Below, piece by piece: positions 6,998 through 17,874 of a stretch of DNA of 64,000 nt. The stretch is from Pontibacter cellulosilyticus (GTDB lineage: Bacteria > Bacteroidota > Bacteroidia > Cytophagales > Hymenobacteraceae). A program made the position numbers and the translations under genes. Numbering within the stretch: the stretch's first letter is position 1; each line of letters opens with the position of its first letter. Location: contig NZ_JACRVF010000007.1 in assembly GCF_014306105.1 (NCBI RefSeq), positions 1-64,000 on the forward strand, read 5' to 3'. Under the pieces are notes generated by a model. It did no database searches. It saw nothing but the letters and a program-made list of their open reading frames with translations, and was not told where the DNA came from.

Positions 6998-7828
6998 TTG
7001 AACAAAAGGCACTGTAACTCTGGTTTCGTAAGGAAATTATTATTTATATTTGGTCACAGGATTTTGTATTTTAACTTTTTAGCCAAAGTGTCTTCATCAT
7101 TTTTACGACTTACCTCCGTTAATGTACATATTGACGGAATCGGGAAAGTTCTGATTGAGCGAAGCGATAAAGCAAAGCGCCTCAGCATTAGCGTACGCCC
7201 TTTAAAGGGTGTGCGTGTGGCTGTACCGCCGCATATCAGCTTCGAAAAAGCAGAACAGCTCATTTATACCAAGACAGACTGGATAAAAGAGCACCAGGCG
7301 CGCATGCAGCAGCATGAGCAGCAGCTTACCGTATACGATGGCTCTACGGAGTTTAAAACCAAATACCACACGCTGCGCCTGCTTACCCACGCCCAGTACA
7401 GCATGCGGTGCGTAATACAGGATGGCTACATTAATGTGTTTTATCCCGCACATAAAGATGTACGCGATGCAGACGTGCAGAAGTTTATCAGGCAATCAAT
7501 AGAAGAAGGGTATCGTAAAGAGGCCAAGCAGTACCTGCCGGGCCGCGTGGCTTATTTCGCTGATAAGTTCGGTTTTGAGTATCAGAATGTGTTTATCAAG
7601 AGCGCTAAAAGCCGTTGGGGCAGCTGCTCCCACACAAACAACATTAACCTGAACCTGCACCTGATGCGACTGCCTGATGCGCTTTGCGACTACGTGATCC
7701 TGCACGAGTTGGCACACACTGTAGAGAAGAACCACGGCCCCGGCTTCTGGAAACTACTCGACAGCATCTGCGGAAACGCAAAAGGACTGGACAAAAAGTT
7801 AAAAGCTTACCGTATCTCCATCTTTTAA
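6998..7828 (+). CDS. YgjP/M48-type metallopeptidase
   Basis: A zinc metallopeptidase of the YgjP (DUF45) group. Near residue ~205 is KSRWGSCS, followed by LHELAH (residues ~229-234) and a distal KNHGPGFW segment; HELAH provides two zinc histidines and the catalytic Glu. The open frame begins with TTG at 6998; family alignment suggests that the conserved part begins only near residue 40, so the GTG at 7088 (Val31) is a better candidate start, giving ~246 residues. The first 30 residues look untranslated. Function of the family is poorly known. Confidence 0.82.
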   Translation: MNKRHCNSGFVRKLLFIFGHRILYFNFLAKVSSSFLRLTSVNVHIDGIGKVLIERSDKAKRLSISVRPLKGVRVAVPPHISFEKAEQLIYTKTDWIKEHQARMQQHEQQLTVYDGSTEFKTKYHTLRLLTHAQYSMRCVIQDGYINVFYPAHKDVRDADVQKFIRQSIEEGYRKEAKQYLPGRVAYFADKFGFEYQNVFIKSAKSRWGSCSHTNNINLNLHLMRLPDALCDYVILHELAHTVEKNHGPGFWKLLDSICGNAKGLDKKLKAYRISIF

Positions 7829-8033: not shown

Positions 8034-8067
8034 AAAAAAGCCCCGGAGCATGCTTCGGGGCTTTTTA
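8034..8067. terminator. Intrinsic terminator between convergent genes
   Basis: AAAAAGCCCCG ... CGGGGCTTTTT hairpin with a near-palindromic loop. It lies between the convergent peptidase gene and the end of the efflux operon and can serve both. Confidence 0.75.
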
Positions 8068-8090: not shown

Positions 8091-8342
8091 TTAGCTGGCC
8101 TTTCTTAGCGTATGTGTCGAAACAAAATCGATAAAGTCGCCTACTTTGTCAATTGGCACTTCGTCTGGAATAGTGATCTTAAAGTTCTTCTCCAACTCCA
8201 GGATAATATCCACCACATCCACTGTATCAAAGCCAAAATCCTGTAACATTCTGTCGGCCCACAGGCGATCTGCTTTTATCTCTTTTGTTTTGCTAATGAT
8301 ACGGATAACCTCTTTCTCAATAGCGTTAGCTGTAGCAATCAT
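8091..8342 (-). CDS. Acyl carrier protein-like protein with Thr at the phosphopantetheine site
   Basis: 83 residues with the four-helix ACP pattern and normal length. The helix-II signature that normally reads D-S-L reads DFGFDTVDVVD here, so the serine that carries 4'-phosphopantetheine is Thr40 (codon ACA read on the minus strand). Known carrier-protein synthases modify serine, so this protein may be unmodified. It starts 5 bases after the stop of the RND pump gene and is almost certainly the last gene of the efflux operon. A structural or regulatory subunit of the pump is my inference; MmpL3-AcpM is a known precedent for an RND protein binding an ACP. Confidence 0.82.
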   Translation of the reverse strand: MIATANAIEKEVIRIISKTKEIKADRLWADRMLQDFGFDTVDVVDIILELEKNFKITIPDEVPIDKVGDFIDFVSTHTLRKAS

Positions 8343-8347
8343 AGTAG

Positions 8348-11300
8348 TTAAACTGTGTATTCTCTAACTTTTCCGTTTACATGAACCTCTTGCTGCTGAT
8401 CTACTTTAAGAGCTCCACGTTTTCTCTTACTAATTAATCTATCTTTTAATTTCTCGTTCAATAAGTACATTACTGGTACAATCAGCAGGGTAATGATGGT
8501 AGCAAAGCTTAGGCCAAAAATAATGGTCCAGGCCAACGGTCCCCAGAACGCCACGCTGTCTCCGCCCAGGAAGAAGCCTGCCTCAAACTCTGTGAACAGC
8601 GTAAAGAAGTTCAGGTTTAAGCCTATTGCCAGCGGAATAAGACCAAGTATAGTAGCCGTGGCCGTTAGCAATACCGGGTTCAGACGTGTTTTACCAGCCT
8701 CTACAATGGCTTCCTTCAACTCCCGGCCTTCTGCCAGTAAAATGTCTGTAAATTCCACGATAAGAATACCGTTCTTCACCACAATACCGGCCAGCGCCAC
8801 TATACCAACGCCCGTCATTACCACCGAAGTATCCATTCCGAAGATAGAGAAGCCCAAAAGCACACCTATGATCGAGAACAGCACCTCCGAAAGTATAATA
8901 AACGGCTTCGATACCGAGTTAAACTGCGTTACCAGGATTAGGAAGATGATCAGGAAAGCCGCTACCAGAGCAACCATAAGGAATATCATGGTTTCCTGCT
9001 GCTCTTCCTGCTGTCCGCCCATTCTCACCTCATAGCCCTCTGGCGTCTGGAAGTTCTGCAAAGACGTCTCTATCTGCTGTACTACCTCGTTCGGGTTGTA
9101 GCCATCCAGTACGTTCGACTCCAGTGTAACCATACGCTTCAGGTTCTTACGTTTAATGCCCCCATAGCTCGTAGAGTAATCTATACTTGCTACCGACGAT
9201 AACGGGATCTGACGCACCTGCCCTGAGTTCATGTCGCGGTACGTAATGCGCATATCCAGCAAGGCGTCAATATTGTCGCGGTAAGGCTCAGCGTAACGCA
9301 CCTGTATAGGGTACTCTTCCTCATCCAGTTTAAACTTAGAGGCCTCTGTACCGAAGATGGCTGTACGCACCTCCTGCCCTATTTGCCCTGTGCTAATGCC
9401 TTCGCGGTTCGCACGCTCACGGTCAATGTTCACGATAATCTCCGGCTTGCTATCCTCTAAGTCAGAACGCAGTTCTTCAATACCGCCAATACCTTGCTCA
9501 TCTATGTACTGCTCTACCTGCTTCGACAGCCTGATCAACCCTTCAAAGTCTTCACCGGCAACTTCAATCGAGATTGGTTTGCCAACTGGTGGCCCACTTT
9601 GCTCCTTGTCAACTGTGATGTCAGCACCCGGTATACCCTGCACCGCTTCACGTATTTTAGTCAGGTAATCTGAGGTCGAAATATCTCCTTCACGGTCTTT
9701 ATACTCAACAAAGGCAACGGTAACCTTTCCTTTATGAGATTGTGGTGTAGCACTACGTTCGTTCTGGTCGCCGGCACCAATGGCCACGTTCGAAATCACC
9801 GACTCCACGTTTGGGTTGTTCTCGCCTATCACGTTGTAAACCCGCTTCTCCACGATCTTCGTAACCGAGTCTGTTACAGCCTGATCTGTACCGACAGGCA
9901 TGTTGATATAAGTATAAACGAAGTTCGGGTCACCAGAAGGGAAGAACACCATTTTAGGCGGACGAAGTGCTGTGAGAACTATTGAAAAAATTAACAGGCC
10001 AATGATGCTGAAGAACACACCGATCGGTCTTTTGCCTACCAGCATCCAGCGAAGAACATTTTCGTAACCTCTCATAAAACGAGGCAGCGTATTGTTCTGG
10101 AATCTGTTGATCATGCCAGTAAACACAAACTTGTTCAGCAGTACTAGCACCACTAGCAGCATGAGCAGGTTGGCAGTACCGTACCAGCCAGCTATGTAGC
10201 CGATAAGTGCCAGCACTAAGCCCACTACAGTCAGAATCCAGAACATCTTGCGGGAACGCGGTGCAACTTCTGCCTCTGTTTTGTGCTCCTTCTTCATGAA
10301 AGACGCAGCAAACACAGGGTTGATGATGAATGCCACCAACAGCGACGATACAAGCGTTACGATTAGCGTAATAGGCAGGTACTGCATAAACTTACCCACA
10401 ATCCCCGGCCAGAACAGCAGCGGGAAGAACGGCGCAATAGTAGTAAGCGTACCAGCCAATACAGGTATAAATACCTCACCTGCCGCAGCCTTCGATGATT
10501 TAACTATACTTAAGTTGGTAGTATGGAAAATGCGGTGCGTGTTCTCAATTACCACAATCGCGTCGTCTACTACTATACCTAGAGCAAGCAGGAAGGCAAA
10601 AAGTACGATCATGTTTAGCGAGATGCCAAAGAAGTGGAATGTCAGGAATGCCACAAACATAGAGATAGGCACCGACAGACCGACGAAAATCGCATTGGTT
10701 GTACCCATAAAGAACATCAGCACCAGCGTTACCAGCACAAAGCCGATGATAATGGTGTTGATCAGGTCGTTTAGGGTATGGCGCGTCATTTTAGACTGAT
10801 CGCCGGTGATGGTGATCTTCAGGTCGTCTGGTAAGGTAGAGCCCTGCATCTCTTCAATTGTCTCACGGATCTTGTCAGAAGCCTCGATCAGGTTCTCGCC
10901 GCTGCGCTTGATCACGTTCAGGGTAATTACCGGTGCGTTGTCCAGGCGGGCAAAGCTTTCCTGCTCTTCAAAGCCTTCTCTTACCTCGGCAATCTCTTTA
11001 AGCTGTATGTTGGCACCCGATAAGGATTTCACAACGATGTCGCCGATCTTGTTTGGGTCTACATACTGGCCCACCACACGCACAGAACGCTTGGCCTCGC
11101 CAACGGTAACGTTACCACCTGAAATAGTAATGTTTTCACGTGCGATGGCAGCGGCAATATCATTAAAAGTTACTTTTGCAGCCTGCATTTTATACAGGTC
11201 CACATTTACCTGCACCTCTTTGTCCAGGGCGCCTACCATGTCTACGCGGGTAATCTCCGGAAACTCCTCCATCCTGTCTTGCAGGTCTTCGGCATACTGC

Positions 11301-11770
11301 TTCAGTTTGTCCAGGCTGTAGTTACCCGACACGTTCACGAACATGATCGGAATTTCAGAGAAGTTTACCTCCTGCACGTTCGGCTCCTGGTCCAGGTCGG
11401 TTGGCAGGTCTGGTCGGGCTTTATCTACAGCATCTTTCACCTGCTGTTTCGCCTCGGCCACCTCCACATCAGTATTAAACTCCACGGTAATCATCGAGAA
11501 ATCCTGAATGGAGTTGGAGGTAACTTTCTTAACGCCGTTAATAGCTTTAATTTCCTTCTCTATTGGTCGCGTTACCAGGTTCTCCATGTCTGATGGAGAG
11601 GTGCCTGGGTAAATGGTGCTCACAAACACCGTCGGGATAACGATGTCCGGGAAGTTCTCTTTCTGCAGGTTGATGTAAGAGAAGATACCCGCCAGCGAGA
11701 TAATAACGGTTATGATATAGATACTTGTTCTATTATCGATAGACCAACTGGTTGGCTTAAACTGTTTCAT
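8348..11770 (-). CDS. RND efflux transporter permease
   Basis: Inner-membrane proton-driven drug or lipid exporter of the HAE1/AcrB-like class, 1140 residues, a full-length size. It has an N-terminal TM helix (residues ~15-33), a large periplasmic porter domain, a central TM bundle with GIVVDDAIVVIENTHR (TM4 proton-relay aspartates), a second porter half and a C-terminal TM bundle. Its expected partners lie upstream in order: adaptor (22-base gap), TolC channel, TetR repressor. The second half is interrupted by extra TM segments near residues ~510-545, as in many Bacteroidota RND pumps. Substrate unknown. Confidence 0.93.
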   Translation of the reverse strand: MKQFKPTSWSIDNRTSIYIITVIISLAGIFSYINLQKENFPDIVIPTVFVSTIYPGTSPSDMENLVTRPIEKEIKAINGVKKVTSNSIQDFSMITVEFNTDVEVAEAKQQVKDAVDKARPDLPTDLDQEPNVQEVNFSEIPIMFVNVSGNYSLDKLKQYAEDLQDRMEEFPEITRVDMVGALDKEVQVNVDLYKMQAAKVTFNDIAAAIARENITISGGNVTVGEAKRSVRVVGQYVDPNKIGDIVVKSLSGANIQLKEIAEVREGFEEQESFARLDNAPVITLNVIKRSGENLIEASDKIRETIEEMQGSTLPDDLKITITGDQSKMTRHTLNDLINTIIIGFVLVTLVLMFFMGTTNAIFVGLSVPISMFVAFLTFHFFGISLNMIVLFAFLLALGIVVDDAIVVIENTHRIFHTTNLSIVKSSKAAAGEVFIPVLAGTLTTIAPFFPLLFWPGIVGKFMQYLPITLIVTLVSSLLVAFIINPVFAASFMKKEHKTEAEVAPRSRKMFWILTVVGLVLALIGYIAGWYGTANLLMLLVVLVLLNKFVFTGMINRFQNNTLPRFMRGYENVLRWMLVGKRPIGVFFSIIGLLIFSIVLTALRPPKMVFFPSGDPNFVYTYINMPVGTDQAVTDSVTKIVEKRVYNVIGENNPNVESVISNVAIGAGDQNERSATPQSHKGKVTVAFVEYKDREGDISTSDYLTKIREAVQGIPGADITVDKEQSGPPVGKPISIEVAGEDFEGLIRLSKQVEQYIDEQGIGGIEELRSDLEDSKPEIIVNIDRERANREGISTGQIGQEVRTAIFGTEASKFKLDEEEYPIQVRYAEPYRDNIDALLDMRITYRDMNSGQVRQIPLSSVASIDYSTSYGGIKRKNLKRMVTLESNVLDGYNPNEVVQQIETSLQNFQTPEGYEVRMGGQQEEQQETMIFLMVALVAAFLIIFLILVTQFNSVSKPFIILSEVLFSIIGVLLGFSIFGMDTSVVMTGVGIVALAGIVVKNGILIVEFTDILLAEGRELKEAIVEAGKTRLNPVLLTATATILGLIPLAIGLNLNFFTLFTEFEAGFFLGGDSVAFWGPLAWTIIFGLSFATIITLLIVPVMYLLNEKLKDRLISKRKRGALKVDQQQEVHVNGKVREYTV

Positions 11771-11792: not shown

Positions 11793-12944
11793 TTACTTCT
11801 GCGTCAGGCTGTTCTGGGTAAACACCACTGGCTGCCCCTCGTTCACACTCTGGTAACCGGCAGTAATTACCTGGTCATCGGCAGTCAGGCCACTTAACAC
11901 TTCCACGTTTCCTTTGTAGGTCATGCCTGTTTTAATTTCTTTTCTGGCAGCTACATACTTGTCGCCTTCTTTTTTGGCCACATACACATACTCGGTTTTC
12001 TCGTCGCGCTGTACCAAGTTTACAGGCAACACAATAGTGCCTTCATTCTTATAATCCTGGATGCGCACCACAGCCACCATATTAGGTTTCAGGTTCACTT
12101 CGTTGCCATTCTTCAGGCGAAGCTCAACAGTAAATGTGCGGCTGGTTGGGTTAATAAAATTGCCCACTACATCCACTTTCGTCTCAATCTCCTTGTTCAG
12201 GTCCGGGAAGAAAACCACTGCATCGTCGCCTTTGTTTATCTTAGCCTGATAAGCCTCTGATACCTCTGCCACAATCTTACCGCCCTGTGTGTTAACCACC
12301 CGGATAATACCCATGCCCGGTGCTACAGACTCTCCTGAATTAGGAATAACATCATCTACCACACCGCTTATCGGAGCCTTGATATTATACTGATCGCGCT
12401 GCTGCTGCAGTGTAGCCAGACTACGCTCCAGGGCCTCTTTGTTATTTTTGGCCGTCAGGTACTGCATCTCGGTGCCGATCTTCTGGTCCCACAGGTTTTT
12501 CTGTTTTTCGTAAGCAATTTTGGCAAGATCTAGGCGGGTTCTTACCTCTGCCAGGTTCTGCTCCAACACCTGCGCATCGATGGTAGCCATTGTCTGTCCT
12601 TTAGACACTTTATTACCACGCTCAACACGTACGCTTGTAAGTACACCCGGCACTTTGGCGCTTACCAGCACGTTTTGGTCAAAATCAACCTTACCCTGCA
12701 CCTCCAGGTAATGGCGGAAAGTATCCTGGCTTAGCGCCTCCACGGTTACAGGTACAGTCTTTTTCTCAGTGGCAACAGTTTTGCCTTCCGCCTTCAGTTC
12801 AGCCTCAAGAGCTGCAATTTGCTCTTCTATTTTTACCTGCTCTGCCTTTAGTTCTTCCAGCTGCTTTTCTTTGTCGTCGTTTCCGCCGCAAGCAGCCAGA
12901 CCTAGCAACAGGGCCATAGAAGATATTCCTAGTATTCGTCTCAT
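11793..12944 (-). CDS. RND efflux periplasmic adaptor (membrane fusion protein), lipoprotein
   Basis: Links the inner-membrane pump to the outer-membrane channel. The 383 residues begin with a lipoprotein signal with lipobox LAAC, Cys19. A coiled coil (KEKQLEELKAEQ onward, residues ~25-55) precedes the lipoyl/barrel-sandwich halves, a helical hairpin (residues ~125-185) and beta-barrel plus membrane-proximal domains. The early extra coiled coil right after the lipid anchor is slightly unusual. Same operon as the pump and TolC genes, 34 bases after the TolC stop. Confidence 0.9.
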   Translation of the reverse strand: MRRILGISSMALLLGLAACGGNDDKEKQLEELKAEQVKIEEQIAALEAELKAEGKTVATEKKTVPVTVEALSQDTFRHYLEVQGKVDFDQNVLVSAKVPGVLTSVRVERGNKVSKGQTMATIDAQVLEQNLAEVRTRLDLAKIAYEKQKNLWDQKIGTEMQYLTAKNNKEALERSLATLQQQRDQYNIKAPISGVVDDVIPNSGESVAPGMGIIRVVNTQGGKIVAEVSEAYQAKINKGDDAVVFFPDLNKEIETKVDVVGNFINPTSRTFTVELRLKNGNEVNLKPNMVAVVRIQDYKNEGTIVLPVNLVQRDEKTEYVYVAKKEGDKYVAARKEIKTGMTYKGNVEVLSGLTADDQVITAGYQSVNEGQPVVFTQNSLTQK

Positions 12945-12978: not shown

Positions 12979-14346
12979 TTATTTAGTAAGTAGGGTGCCA
13001 GTGGCTTTCTCTAAGTTCACTTTTGCAACTAGAGCATCATAGATAGCAGCGTAGTAGTTTGTTTGGGCCTCGCGAAGCTCTGTCTCTGCAGTAATCACCT
13101 CCAGGTTAGATCCGACACCCTCCTGAAACTTGATCTTGGCCACACGGGCAATGTCCTCTGCCAACTCCAGGTTCTCGCGCTGCGAATCCAGCACATCAAG
13201 GGCATTGGTTAATTCTGTTGAGGACTGGTCGATTTGCAGGTCTATACTTTGGCGCAACGCCTCAAAGCCAAACTTGGTGTTCTCCAGGGTCAGCCTAGCT
13301 TGCTGTATTTGGTAGTGTTTGCGTAGGCCGTCGAATATAGGAAGCTGAATCTGACCACCAACATAGCCATACTCCAGCCAATTTCTTGTTTGGGTTATTT
13401 CGCTGAAATCGTTGTTTGCTGCGTTGTAACCATAGCGGGCATTTAAGTATAGCTTAGGCAGGTAACCTGATTTCCTGTTGCGCAGGTCGAGCTCAGCCAA
13501 ATCGCGCTGTGTTTCAAGTATAGAGTATTCGATTCTGCTGCCGTAGTTAAACTCCTGCGGAGCAACTTTGGCTATACTTACCTCTACCTCCGAAAGCTTG
13601 TCTGTCAGGGTTAATTGTTGCCTATGATCAATGCCCATCTGGAATTTTAGCAGGCTTTCGCTCAACTCCATTAGGCGCTCTGCTTTCTGCTTTTCTACCT
13701 TTAAGTTGTTCAGCGATACACGCAGTCGGTCTACGTCTAGCTTTTCAGCAACACCATTCTCAAACATTATGCGTGTCTGGCTTAGCACCGTGTCTAAGCG
13801 GGCAATGTTCTGGTTAAGCAATTCCATACGTTCACGGTTAACCAGCACACCATAATAAGCTTTAGACACCTGCTCTGCTACGTCTATTTCGCTTTGGGCA
13901 GTGGTTTTGCGGGAAAGCTCTGTATAGGTTTTAGCTGCTTTTAAGCCAATCAGGTAAGTACCATCAAATAGCAACTGGCTACCTGTCAACACCGCATTAC
14001 CAGTATATGCCGGCGTAAAGGTAACCGGCACGAAAGTACCTGGCTGTGGAGAGTTAGGATCATTAGGGTCGTTAAAGAACTCACCCGGCAAGAAGCTCTG
14101 TTGCTGTACAAAGTTATCTCCCACATCCAGTGAGCCATTGATCTGCGGCAAGCCCATTGCTCTTATTTCGCCAACCTGCGCCTTGGCGATTTTTTCCTCG
14201 TTGCGGGTAGCGGCAAGGCTGGCGCGGTTCTGCAGTGCGTAGTTTATACTTTCCTGCAGGCTAAACGACTGTGGGCTCTGCCCTTGTGCGTGTGTAGAGC
14301 CTATCAGCGCAAAGACAGCTAAAAATAGGCTTAGATAGTTCTTCAT
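12979..14346 (-). CDS. TolC family outer-membrane efflux channel
   Basis: Outer-membrane trimeric channel of the efflux complex. About 455 residues after choosing the ATG at 14346; an upstream ATG at 14403 would overlap the tetR gene and precede the signal peptide by 19 residues. The signal (MKNYLSLFLAVFALIG...) ends near an AQG site. Two OEP repeats follow, starting LQESINYALQNRASL and RDLAELDLRNRKSG, each with long coiled-coil helices. The 25-base gap to tetR indicates cotranscription with the regulator. Confidence 0.88.
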   Translation of the reverse strand: MKNYLSLFLAVFALIGSTHAQGQSPQSFSLQESINYALQNRASLAATRNEEKIAKAQVGEIRAMGLPQINGSLDVGDNFVQQQSFLPGEFFNDPNDPNSPQPGTFVPVTFTPAYTGNAVLTGSQLLFDGTYLIGLKAAKTYTELSRKTTAQSEIDVAEQVSKAYYGVLVNRERMELLNQNIARLDTVLSQTRIMFENGVAEKLDVDRLRVSLNNLKVEKQKAERLMELSESLLKFQMGIDHRQQLTLTDKLSEVEVSIAKVAPQEFNYGSRIEYSILETQRDLAELDLRNRKSGYLPKLYLNARYGYNAANNDFSEITQTRNWLEYGYVGGQIQLPIFDGLRKHYQIQQARLTLENTKFGFEALRQSIDLQIDQSSTELTNALDVLDSQRENLELAEDIARVAKIKFQEGVGSNLEVITAETELREAQTNYYAAIYDALVAKVNLEKATGTLLTK

Positions 14347-14371
14347 AATTTTATTTAGGTAGTAGGTAGTG

Positions 14372-15004
14372 TTATTCTTCTTCGATTCTATGCTTAAACT
14401 CATTAATCATCTTATGTCCGCGTAAAGTAGCCATACCTAGCATATAGTGCTCCAACATGTCTACCTGCACTTTCTGTATGTTGAATTCGTGCGGCGGAAA
14501 CAGTTTATTATCATAGGCCATCTCTATCATTCCCAAGCGCATCCGTGCTATTATTTCCACATCCAAATCGCCGCGGTAAAGTCCCTCTGCCACACCACGC
14601 AGTATATTTAGCTTTACCTTCTCAAGTATAAATTCATACTTGTGGGCCAACCACAGCTGCCAGCTGTCGCCGTGATACTTCTGCACGTCATGGAAAATGG
14701 ATGGATGCACCCTGGCCACTACTCGCTTCGTCATCTCCATCAGTCCCCAAAGTTCTTCGATTGCATTACCGGCCCCCTGCATAGAACACTCACAATCGTC
14801 TTCCATTGTCTGCAGAAATGTTTTGCAGGAGTAGTACACGATCTGGTCTTTGTTATCGAACCACTTGTAAATGGTTTTTTTAGACATAGACAGGTGCTGG
14901 GCAATATCATCCATCGACACACTTTTAATACCCCTCTGGCAGAAGAGCTCGAAAGCGGCCTGTGTAATTTTAAGTTTGGTCTCTAAGTTCTCAGTTGTTT
15001 CCAT
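14372..15004 (-). CDS. TetR/AcrR family repressor of the efflux operon
   Basis: 210 residues with an N-terminal TetR helix-turn-helix (residues ~10-56, with SMDDIAQHLSMSKKTIYKWF) and a C-terminal ligand/dimer domain. First gene of the operon tetR-tolC-adaptor-RND-ACP, so it probably represses its own transcript and senses a pump substrate. The ~250 bases upstream hold a candidate palindromic operator. Confidence 0.9.
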   Translation of the reverse strand: METTENLETKLKITQAAFELFCQRGIKSVSMDDIAQHLSMSKKTIYKWFDNKDQIVYYSCKTFLQTMEDDCECSMQGAGNAIEELWGLMEMTKRVVARVHPSIFHDVQKYHGDSWQLWLAHKYEFILEKVKLNILRGVAEGLYRGDLDVEIIARMRLGMIEMAYDNKLFPPHEFNIQKVQVDMLEHYMLGMATLRGHKMINEFKHRIEEE

Positions 15005-15254: not shown

Positions 15255-16001
15255 TTACAATCCTAAAACTGACCTTAATTTTGTGTAGCCACTCTTGCTC
15301 AGGGGTATGCGTTCGCCGGTTTTCAGCAGTGCCACGTGGTTGTCTTTCTCCAGAGGTTCTATTCGGGTGAGTTGGGGCAGGGCAAGTATAAAAGAGCGGT
15401 GCACACGCACAAATTGGCTGGGGTTCAGGGTGTTTTCGTAGTAGCCCATGGTTTTCTTCTTCAGAAAAGTGCCCTCTTTGGTGTGTATCTTCACATAATC
15501 GTCGTAGGCCTCTAAGTATAGCACATCGACCACAGGTATGATTTTGATGTTATTACCCACTTTTACCACAATGCGTACCTGCTCTTCGGGTTGCTTGGCG
15601 GGTGTTTCTTCGAGTTGCTGCAGCTTTGCTTCTGGTGCGGCTATTTTTCGCTGCTCCTGCCACTTCTGCAGGGCTGCATCAAACCGGGCCTTGCTGAATG
15701 GCTTTAGCAGGTAATCCACGGCATTAGCCTCGAAAGCTTTAATGGCATACTCATCAAAAGCCGTAGTAAAGATTACCGAAGGCGCATGCTCCACCAGTTC
15801 CAGCATCTCGAAGCCGTTTATTTTGGGCATCTGCACATCCAGGAAGATTAGGTCGGGATGGTGCTGCATAATGGCTTTCACGCCTTCAAACCCGTCGCCG
15901 CACTCCTGCGCCACTTCTATGTCGGGGTGGCCCTGCAGGTATTCTGCCACTATACTTCTGGCTAATGGCTCGTCATCAATTATAAGACACTTACTACTCA
16001 T
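15255..16001 (-). CDS. LytTR family response regulator
   Basis: Two-component response regulator: receiver domain (residues 1-120, phospho-acceptor Asp55 in IFLDVQMPK, Lys in LLKPFSK) and C-terminal LytTR DNA-binding domain (residues ~145-245). A polar Gln/Glu-rich linker joins them. Its start overlaps the stop of the histidine kinase gene by 4 bases, so the two are translationally coupled. Likely regulates the LiaF-like operon itself (see the direct repeat at 17958). Confidence 0.92.
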   Translation of the reverse strand: MSSKCLIIDDEPLARSIVAEYLQGHPDIEVAQECGDGFEGVKAIMQHHPDLIFLDVQMPKINGFEMLELVEHAPSVIFTTAFDEYAIKAFEANAVDYLLKPFSKARFDAALQKWQEQRKIAAPEAKLQQLEETPAKQPEEQVRIVVKVGNNIKIIPVVDVLYLEAYDDYVKIHTKEGTFLKKKTMGYYENTLNPSQFVRVHRSFILALPQLTRIEPLEKDNHVALLKTGERIPLSKSGYTKLRSVLGL

Positions 16002-17023
16002 TTTGCTTGCGGAATTTTGATGGTGGTGATGAAGGTATGGTCTTGCTGCCGGGTGCTTAACAGGTCCTGGCGGGCGTACAGCAAGTATAGCCTACGCTGC
16101 ACCGAGCTTAACCCAAAGCCTGTCCCGCGATTTGGCCGTGTGGTGTCGGGGTCGTAGGGGTTTTGCACCTGTAGTTGCAGGTGATGATCTGCGACAGTGG
16201 CTTTTATATTTATGGCTGTATCGCCGATGGTGTCGTAAAGGCCGAACTTAATGGCATTTTCTACTACGGGCTGCAGCAGCAAAGCCGGCAGGCGCATGTT
16301 CATAGTTTCATTTTGTACTTCTATGGCAGTTTGCAGGCGATGCCCGAACCGTACCTTCTCTATCTCCAAGTATAGCTCCAGGTGCCTCAGTTCGTCCTCC
16401 AGCGTTACCAGCTGCTGGTTTTCTTTGCGCAGCGTACCCCGCAGGAACTCCGATAGCTGATGGATCATTGTTCTGGCCTGCTCCGGCCTTGCCCCTACCA
16501 GTGCGCTGATAGAGTTAAGGCTATTGAACAGGAAATGTGGCTGCAATTGCTGACGAAGCGTGTTCAGTTCAGCCTCACGGGCCAACTTTTCTGTAGTTGC
16601 TTTGCGTTCCTCGTCCTGCTGCCGGTTACGTGTGTAGTACCACATCCAGCTCATAAGCAGCATCAGCAGCACCATTAGCCAGGCAAACACAAGCCTTACA
16701 GGCAGCGTAGCACTTTCAAAGCTCAGGTATACTTCGTTAGAGCTAAACGCACGTTCTACTATAAAATCAAATAACAATATGCAGATCCCGGCCAGGCCAA
16801 GGCTCCAACCAAACAAGTAAGCACCCTGTTTTATACTTGGCTGATAGTAACGCAATCCTGTTCCCATGGCATAACCTCCTGTTGTCAGCAGCAGGTTAGT
16901 GAGCAGCGCATCAGCTACAGCTACGTCTACGGGCAGCCCCACCGACCACAGCAGCATTGCCTGTACTGCAGACCACAACAGGGCCCAACCCAAGTAAACA
17001 AGTATGATGCGCAGTGGAGACAT
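15998..17023 (-). CDS. LytS/YehU-type sensor histidine kinase
   Basis: 341 residues. Four hydrophobic segments (about residues 8-28, 38-55, 70-90, 108-128) form a membrane sensor without a large external domain. A coiled linker leads to the His_kinase motif QLQPHFLFNSLNS, with His163 as phosphorylation site, and a HATPase_c domain (VVENAIKFGL and GTGFGLSSVQRRL). Partner of the following LytTR regulator. The gene lies 11 bases after the LiaF-like gene. Confidence 0.92.
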   Translation of the reverse strand: MSPLRIILVYLGWALLWSAVQAMLLWSVGLPVDVAVADALLTNLLLTTGGYAMGTGLRYYQPSIKQGAYLFGWSLGLAGICILLFDFIVERAFSSNEVYLSFESATLPVRLVFAWLMVLLMLLMSWMWYYTRNRQQDEERKATTEKLAREAELNTLRQQLQPHFLFNSLNSISALVGARPEQARTMIHQLSEFLRGTLRKENQQLVTLEDELRHLELYLEIEKVRFGHRLQTAIEVQNETMNMRLPALLLQPVVENAIKFGLYDTIGDTAINIKATVADHHLQLQVQNPYDPDTTRPNRGTGFGLSSVQRRLYLLYARQDLLSTRQQDHTFITTIKIPQAK

Positions 17024-17034
17024 ATTTTTATACT

Positions 17035-17874
17035 TTAGAAGCTCTTGATCTGAAGACCGCCAAACATAGAGGTACCTTTTATGATCAGCACTTTGTTCGG
17101 GTCGTAGCCGCCGGGCATTACCGGACGTTTGTCGTCGATGCCGCCAAGTATAGCCACCGCCTCCGATTTAACCTGCCAGTGCGGCGGAACTATCAGCGTG
17201 GTGCCTCCAAAGATCTGCGTTGCCTCCAATACAGCCGGCTGCTGCAGGTCGGCCTGGCTCATGTTTAGCTCCGTGCCGCCAAAAACACTCACAACCTCGC
17301 CTCCTCTAAAGTTTTTAGAAATGATGCTCTTCTTTACTCCTCCGAAAATAGCAGTGGCATCCACGTAATCTTCTGTAGAGGCGTCGCTGCCAAAAACGTT
17401 GAAACCTTCATCCTGCTGCCCTACCGTAGCGCTACTGGCATAATCGCCGGTGTAGTCATTTATTGGCTGCTGGGGTTGCTGTGGCTGTGGTGGCGGCATG
17501 TGCCGGGGATAGTGCCCTTTGGGCTTTAACATTACCCACAGTCCGATACCGATCAGCAGAATTGGCCAGAAGTAAAATTTGAGATTAATACCCGGCACCA
17601 GGTCGCTTATCAGGAAAACTGTACCGATGATGATCAGCACCAGCCAGGCCGGTTTTCTGAAGTTGTGCTTAAAGCCAACAAATAAGCCTAGCACGATCAA
17701 AAACATTTGCCAGGAAAACACCCAGCCAGGCAGAAAGAAGTAGTCTAGTTTGGTGGCAAGTATAACCAAGCCAATTACTACCAGCAGCATGCCTGCCATT
17801 ACTTTGCCTCCGCTACCGCCACGGCGCGGACTGTCCCAGTTGCCGCCGTAGTTGTTATAATCTCTGTTATCCAT
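17035..17874 (-). CDS. LiaF-like membrane protein (envelope-stress operon)
   Basis: 279 residues: a Gly/Arg-rich N-terminus, four predicted TM helices in residues ~25-125, a Pro/Gln linker, and a C-terminal beta-rich domain with repeated IFGG / VFGG / ILGG turns typical of LiaF_C or DUF1707-like cell-wall-active-antibiotic-response proteins. In Gram-positives LiaF inhibits a LytS-like or LiaS kinase; here it precedes a LytS/LytTR pair, so a modulatory role for the kinase is plausible but inferred. Confidence 0.82.
   Translation of the reverse strand: MDNRDYNNYGGNWDSPRRGGSGGKVMAGMLLVVIGLVILATKLDYFFLPGWVFSWQMFLIVLGLFVGFKHNFRKPAWLVLIIIGTVFLISDLVPGINLKFYFWPILLIGIGLWVMLKPKGHYPRHMPPPQPQQPQQPINDYTGDYASSATVGQQDEGFNVFGSDASTEDYVDATAIFGGVKKSIISKNFRGGEVVSVFGGTELNMSQADLQQPAVLEATQIFGGTTLIVPPHWQVKSEAVAILGGIDDKRPVMPGGYDPNKVLIIKGTSMFGGLQIKSF

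Follow-up and report, generated by a model that had tools for sequence, protein, structure and literature searches.

A serine-less acyl carrier protein paralogue at the end of an RND efflux operon, a putative cofactor-free docking protein of Hymenobacteraceae

The last gene of an RND efflux operon in Pontibacter cellulosilyticus encodes an acyl carrier protein (ACP) paralogue that has lost the serine of the phosphopantetheine attachment site, and the gene is kept across the sampled Hymenobacteraceae even where the pump beside it has been deleted. Our preferred reading, to which we give a probability of about 0.55, is that the product would be a cofactor-free docking ACP, a non-carrier acting in trans with a function of its own, for which the RND operon would serve mainly as the transcription unit. 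An ACP-fold protein without an acyl chain would act through protein-protein docking, in the cytoplasm. We put at about even odds the evolutionary reading that an ACP lineage gave up its carrier function and is now a core cofactor-free docking protein of Hymenobacteraceae, cotranscribed with RND genes and tied to no single pump. ACPs bind many proteins besides lipid enzymes, and the essential nature of the carrier makes docking difficult to study apart from cargo. Evolution appears to have made this separation here, with a cofactor-free ACP that every family member examined has kept, alongside a normal carrier. ACP docking without cargo would thereby become testable in a cultivable bacterium, with the natural pump deletions as controls.

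The features of the locus within the window, that is, the whole 64,000-nucleotide stretch analyzed, are as follows.

8035 to 8066, no strand assigned: inverted repeat with perfectly abutting arms and a T run on either strand, an intrinsic terminator
8091 to 8342, minus strand: copy A, the Ser-less ACP paralogue of 83 aa, with Thr40 in the attachment motif (translation, PF00550, orthologues)
8348 to 11770, minus strand: RND permease (pump A), 1140 aa, ACR_tran (domain match, orthologues)
11793 to 12944, minus strand: periplasmic adaptor (MFP; RND_mfp), 383 aa (domain match)
12979 to 14403, minus strand: TolC-type outer membrane efflux protein (OMP), 474 aa (domain match)
14372 to 15004, minus strand: TetR-family regulator, first gene of the operon, with a 32-nt overlap with the OMP gene

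The gene order of the operon is TetR-OMP-MFP-RND-ACP. Copy A is read from 8342 to 8091, which corrects its strand; the plus strand of 8091-8342 contains stop codons. The stop codon of the permease occupies 8348-8350 and the ATG of the ACP gene lies at 8342, leaving a gap of 5 nt. The ACP stop is followed by a strong hairpin and T run (fold -21.6 kcal/mol, z -4.3), its arms at 8035-8050 and 8051-8066, indicating that the ACP gene is the last of the operon. Coordinates and hairpin together confirm the claim of an earlier note on this DNA that the gene begins five bases past the RND stop and ends the operon. The terminator is common to the pump operon and a convergent gene for a YgjP-like metallopeptidase (window 6998-7828), which adjoins the ACP gene in Pontibacter, Rufibacter and Adhaeribacter, even at loci that lack the pump. 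Just upstream of the TetR gene, on the same strand, genes for a LytTR response regulator, a histidine kinase and a LiaF-like membrane protein (window 15255-17874) form a Lia-like envelope-stress system adjoining the pump operon.

We then consider the protein itself. The 83-aa product contains GFDTVDVVDIILELEKNF, and the translation bears out the earlier reading of D-T-V instead of D-S-L, with Thr40 in the Ser slot. Copy A narrowly passes the PF00550 cut-off (22.7 bits versus 20.8) and fails that of TIGR00517, the AcpP equivalog (43.2 versus 70.45 bits). A profile of the Ser-less family matched solved ACPs in the PDB (E 2e-15), and an AF2 model of the ACP alone, of moderate confidence (pLDDT 68.7), had ACPs as its top Foldseek matches (best E 0.008), the second PDB match being the AcpM chain of 9mx0. 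The PF00550 match, the PDB profile match and this moderate-confidence model place the protein in the ACP sequence family with a four-helix fold.

The residue at the attachment site was compiled for 151 distinct members of the Ser-less family. Thr occurred in 106, Ile in 19, Val in 7, Leu in 6, Pro and Gln in 3 each, Met, Asn and Ala in 2 each and Glu in 1. Ser, whose presence in orthologues had been named beforehand as the refuting result, was looked for and found in none of them; the lone Ser in the site table belongs to L051, a canonical ACP from outside the clade that is not among the 151. Together with a report that E. coli ACP S36T carries no 4'-PP modification (PMC3340395), this supports the earlier suggestion that the protein probably cannot be charged, and on this evidence a carrier function is very unlikely. 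The proposed survey of Thr conservation turned out otherwise: although Thr is the commonest residue, the site is variable and Thr is not special there. This variation gives no pointer to chemistry on Thr40, and we rejected a conserved Thr with special chemistry as a candidate explanation on the same ground.

Drift of this kind is not seen in the remainder of helix II. D39, D42, V44, I47, E51, P59, D60, E61 and D69 showed no variation among the 84 copy-A sequences, and the acidic docking face of helix II is retained (D39, D42, D45, E51 and D60). Helix I and loop I, acidic in Ser-type ACPs, are basic here, with a mean charge of +4.3 in the 151 members versus -2.8 in 19 Ser-type ACPs. The dN/dS values of the ACP (0.02-0.16) indicate strong purifying selection, and these values, with presence in 200 of 200 sampled Hymenobacteraceae genomes, rule out chance or a pseudogene. 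Replacement of the Ser throughout by unmodifiable residues and retention under selection are two of the features by which a non-carrier docking ACP, bound to a defined partner, would be recognized, and these two were found.

To describe the distribution of the Ser-less ACP, we compared matches within and outside the family. Each of the 200 family genomes gave a match at E 4.6e-14 or better, the named genera being Pontibacter, Rufibacter, Sabulibacter, Botryobacter, Adhaeribacter and Hymenobacter, and the closest named relatives, 95% and 94% identical, belong to Pontibacter. Family members scored about 64 to 143 bits against the profile, versus about 63 bits and below elsewhere in the order. 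Among 395 genomes sampled across the phylum, none outside Hymenobacteraceae gave a match at E 1e-15, and the top profile matches outside the family, considered as possible relatives, were rejected as ordinary Ser-type (DSLD) ACPs. Within the sampled genomes, the Ser-less ACP looks specific to Hymenobacteraceae as far as sequence comparison can tell. All Ser-less forms grouped in a single clade with bootstrap 99, separated from the Ser-type ACPs by a long branch, a pattern consistent with one loss of the Ser and later drift at that position. A limited search of the open literature, which is no proof of novelty, returned no paper joining ACP, RND and Hymenobacter, and a phrase search of the literature for Ser-less bacterial ACPs found none.

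The gene is closely linked to pump A. In 78 of the 80 named genomes, copy A lies directly behind the permease gene (median gap, 6 nt), and this linkage, with the presence of the ACP in all sampled family genomes, indicates that its position behind an RND pump is not due to chance. Pump A was found in 194 of the 200 family genomes, and none of the family genomes sampled had pump A without the ACP. In other Cytophagales families, orthologues with 45-61% identity to pump A were present in 23 of 24 genomes, none of them with an ACP behind it, so the operon is older than the arrival of the ACP in it. Compared with these ACP-less orthologues, the family pumps have few family-specific positions, scattered without clustering, and their cytoplasmic loops show no clear rise in basic charge. 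At one locus (L122, Pontibacter sp. isolate 905), identity to the window falls to 81% for the pump but is 95% for the ACP beside it, which suggests an exchange of the pump gene.

Pump A was absent from 6 of the 200 family genomes, 4 of them at least 99% complete, and the ACP was retained in all six; an obligate subunit would have been lost along with its pump. The pump-less loci examined, from three Rufibacter, P. silvestris and Pontibacter G007, have lost the OMP, MFP and RND genes with the ACP gene intact, and they are otherwise undisturbed between pheS and the YgjP-like gene, in synteny with pump-bearing loci. Short RND remnants are still present in the P. silvestris locus and in one other (L161). 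Because the pump-less loci are internal to their contigs, an assembly-edge artefact does not account for them. In a FastTree phylogeny of neighboring proteins, whose support values were not read, the pump-less species occupied five distinct positions, of which three lay within pump-bearing Rufibacter, and we therefore hold the number of independent pump losses to at least three, probably five. The ACPs of pump-less species are conserved like the others (profile scores of 133-143 bits), with a dN/dS of 0.033 between those of two such species. Pump deletions that spare a conserved ACP suggest that it is selected for something besides pump A, and its survival after pump deletion suggests that it probably has a separate job, performed by binding other proteins.

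Other copies of the protein bear on what that job might be. Two further PF00550 proteins are encoded in the host genome, a canonical DSLD ACP and a second Ser-less paralogue. The canonical gene sits apart and is followed by a ketoacyl-synthase gene (FabF-type, fabF). The second paralogue (L003, C1:40431-40692), with D-I-L at the site, is separated by 92 nt from the preceding gene, which encodes another RND permease, of the 1059-aa type (RND-B). The gap between RND-B and its linked copy is 35-150 nt in Pontibacter and 103-291 nt in Rufibacter, and the Rufibacter copies are closer to copy A than the Pontibacter ones are. Another copy occupies an RND-OEP-ACP arrangement (L252), and on Hymenobacter plasmids one copy lies behind a pump-A-type operon whose pump is 61% identical (L285) and another between TolC and TetR genes (L286). 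RND-linked placements made up 3 of about 11 extra-copy placements, counts that were judged by eye; assuming that 0.5-1.5% of sites qualify, the corresponding chance is about 2e-5 to 5e-4. Because extra copies adjoin RND systems at a rate above chance, a looser tie between the Ser-less ACP and RND systems in general is possible, and the recurrence of such copies argues for an RND-related role over a wholly separate one. Under the docking reading, candidate partners would be the cytoplasmic face of RND permeases generally, as for AcpM on MmpL5, or another bacterial ACP-binding protein. A point against the docking reading is that the acidic residues of the docking face are also common to ordinary ACPs.

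AcpM is an established meromycolate carrier, and the analogy with MmpL-AcpM drawn in the earlier note is fair structurally but does not extend to this carrier role: AcpM keeps its Ser and carries meromycolate, whereas here the Ser is lost and helix I is basic. In mycobacteria, AcpM associates with the RND-superfamily permeases MmpL5 and MmpL3, likewise as an ACP fold, and the Ser-less ACP is encoded with an RND permease in the 78 named loci noted above. On MmpL5, AcpM docks mainly via acidic residues, with contacts at D40, V45, E46, E52 and D61 (PMC11633376, PMC12346298). These correspond here to D39, V44, D45, E51 and D60, invariant or nearly so in the 84 copy-A sequences. Of the helix II/III interface positions, 5 of the 7 mapped are retained, with K/R in place of D53, although most of them also occur in ordinary ACPs. 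AcpM binds an MmpL protein, whereas the pump encoded here is an ACR_tran/AcrB-type tripartite one, without which the Ser-less ACP persists.

The other precedent is the mitochondrial ACP of Plasmodium falciparum, in which the Ser is changed to Phe and Ppant is absent, and which is retained in an essential docking role on Isd11-Nfs1 (PMC8547962). It likewise lost the attachment Ser and the cofactor with the protein kept, and a canonical ACP is found elsewhere in the cell. In contrast, it is a eukaryotic organelle protein with a defined partner, whereas the Ser-less ACP is bacterial, multi-copy and linked to RND operons, and its partner is only a candidate; no common descent of the two Ser losses is implied. 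Canonical AcpP (TIGR00517) shares a homologous fold and the helix II motif, but the Ser-less ACP lacks the Ser, falls below the TIGR00517 cut-off and lies away from fab genes. By the tests applied, it combines features of AcpM and the P. falciparum protein and is a member of neither group.

An alternative that we regard as possible but rather doubtful is a general RND docking subunit, which would bind the cytoplasmic face of several permeases, tune their assembly or activity and outlive pump A because other pumps remain; the pump-less genomes do retain about 12-22 other RND candidates. Copies behind two unrelated RND permeases in the host genome, behind RND-B in Rufibacter too and in or beside other RND-type operons would fit this, as would the low chance of the placements and the solved AcpM-MmpL5 precedent, an AcpM chain being the second PDB match of our model. 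However, RND-B stood without an adjoining ACP in 8 of 11 family genomes checked, including most of those checked outside Rufibacter, and several extra copies have no RND neighbor. Pump A orthologues in the rest of the order presumably work without any ACP, and the family pumps show neither a clear rise in cytoplasmic charge nor clearly clustered changes relative to those orthologues.

It is improbable that the protein is a decoy for the enzymes of holo-ACP, a competitor through which induction of the efflux operon would damp lipid synthesis. The retained acidic recognition helix and the TetR-headed operon speak for this, but the ACP is kept where the whole TetR-controlled operon is gone, and the reversed charge of helix I and loop I would make it a poor mimic of holo-ACP. 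No better placed is the reading proposed at the outset, in which the protein serves pump A alone as a structural or regulatory subunit. The 5-nt spacing, the consistent linkage and the lack of any sampled pump A without the ACP accord with it; it is nevertheless largely contradicted by deletions that stop at the ACP gene, by selection on the ACP with no sign of relaxation after pump loss and by the diverged pump beside a conserved ACP at L122. The earlier tie to a pump may persist in a looser, RND-wide form, and the subunit role is weakened: RND-B often stands without an ACP, as do the orthologous pumps checked in other families. Very improbable is a carrier still charged on Thr40 or elsewhere, since the predominance of Thr and a Ser17 invariant in copy A are outweighed by the nine residues other than Thr recorded at the site, by the reportedly unmodifiable S36T form of E. 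coli ACP (PMC3340395) and by the position of Ser17 in helix I, where it is not fully kept in copy B.

Finally, several observations concern the remaining extra copies. Their unrelated neighbors include genes for a metallophosphatase, a luciferase-like monooxygenase, an adenylate cyclase, a TonB receptor and an amylase. Three Ser-less copies from Rufibacter-like and Hymenobacter genomes (L247, L248 and L253) are followed by a calcineurin-like phosphoesterase gene. Very diverged Ser-less copies with the motif ELG[LI]VDVID occur in Pontibacter G024 and G034, the latter being P. silvestris (L061 and L062). The plasmid copies L285 and L286 are annotated merely as "acyl carrier protein", and one of these plasmids carries a complete TolC-MFP-RND-ACP operon followed by genes for a histidine kinase and a LytTR regulator.
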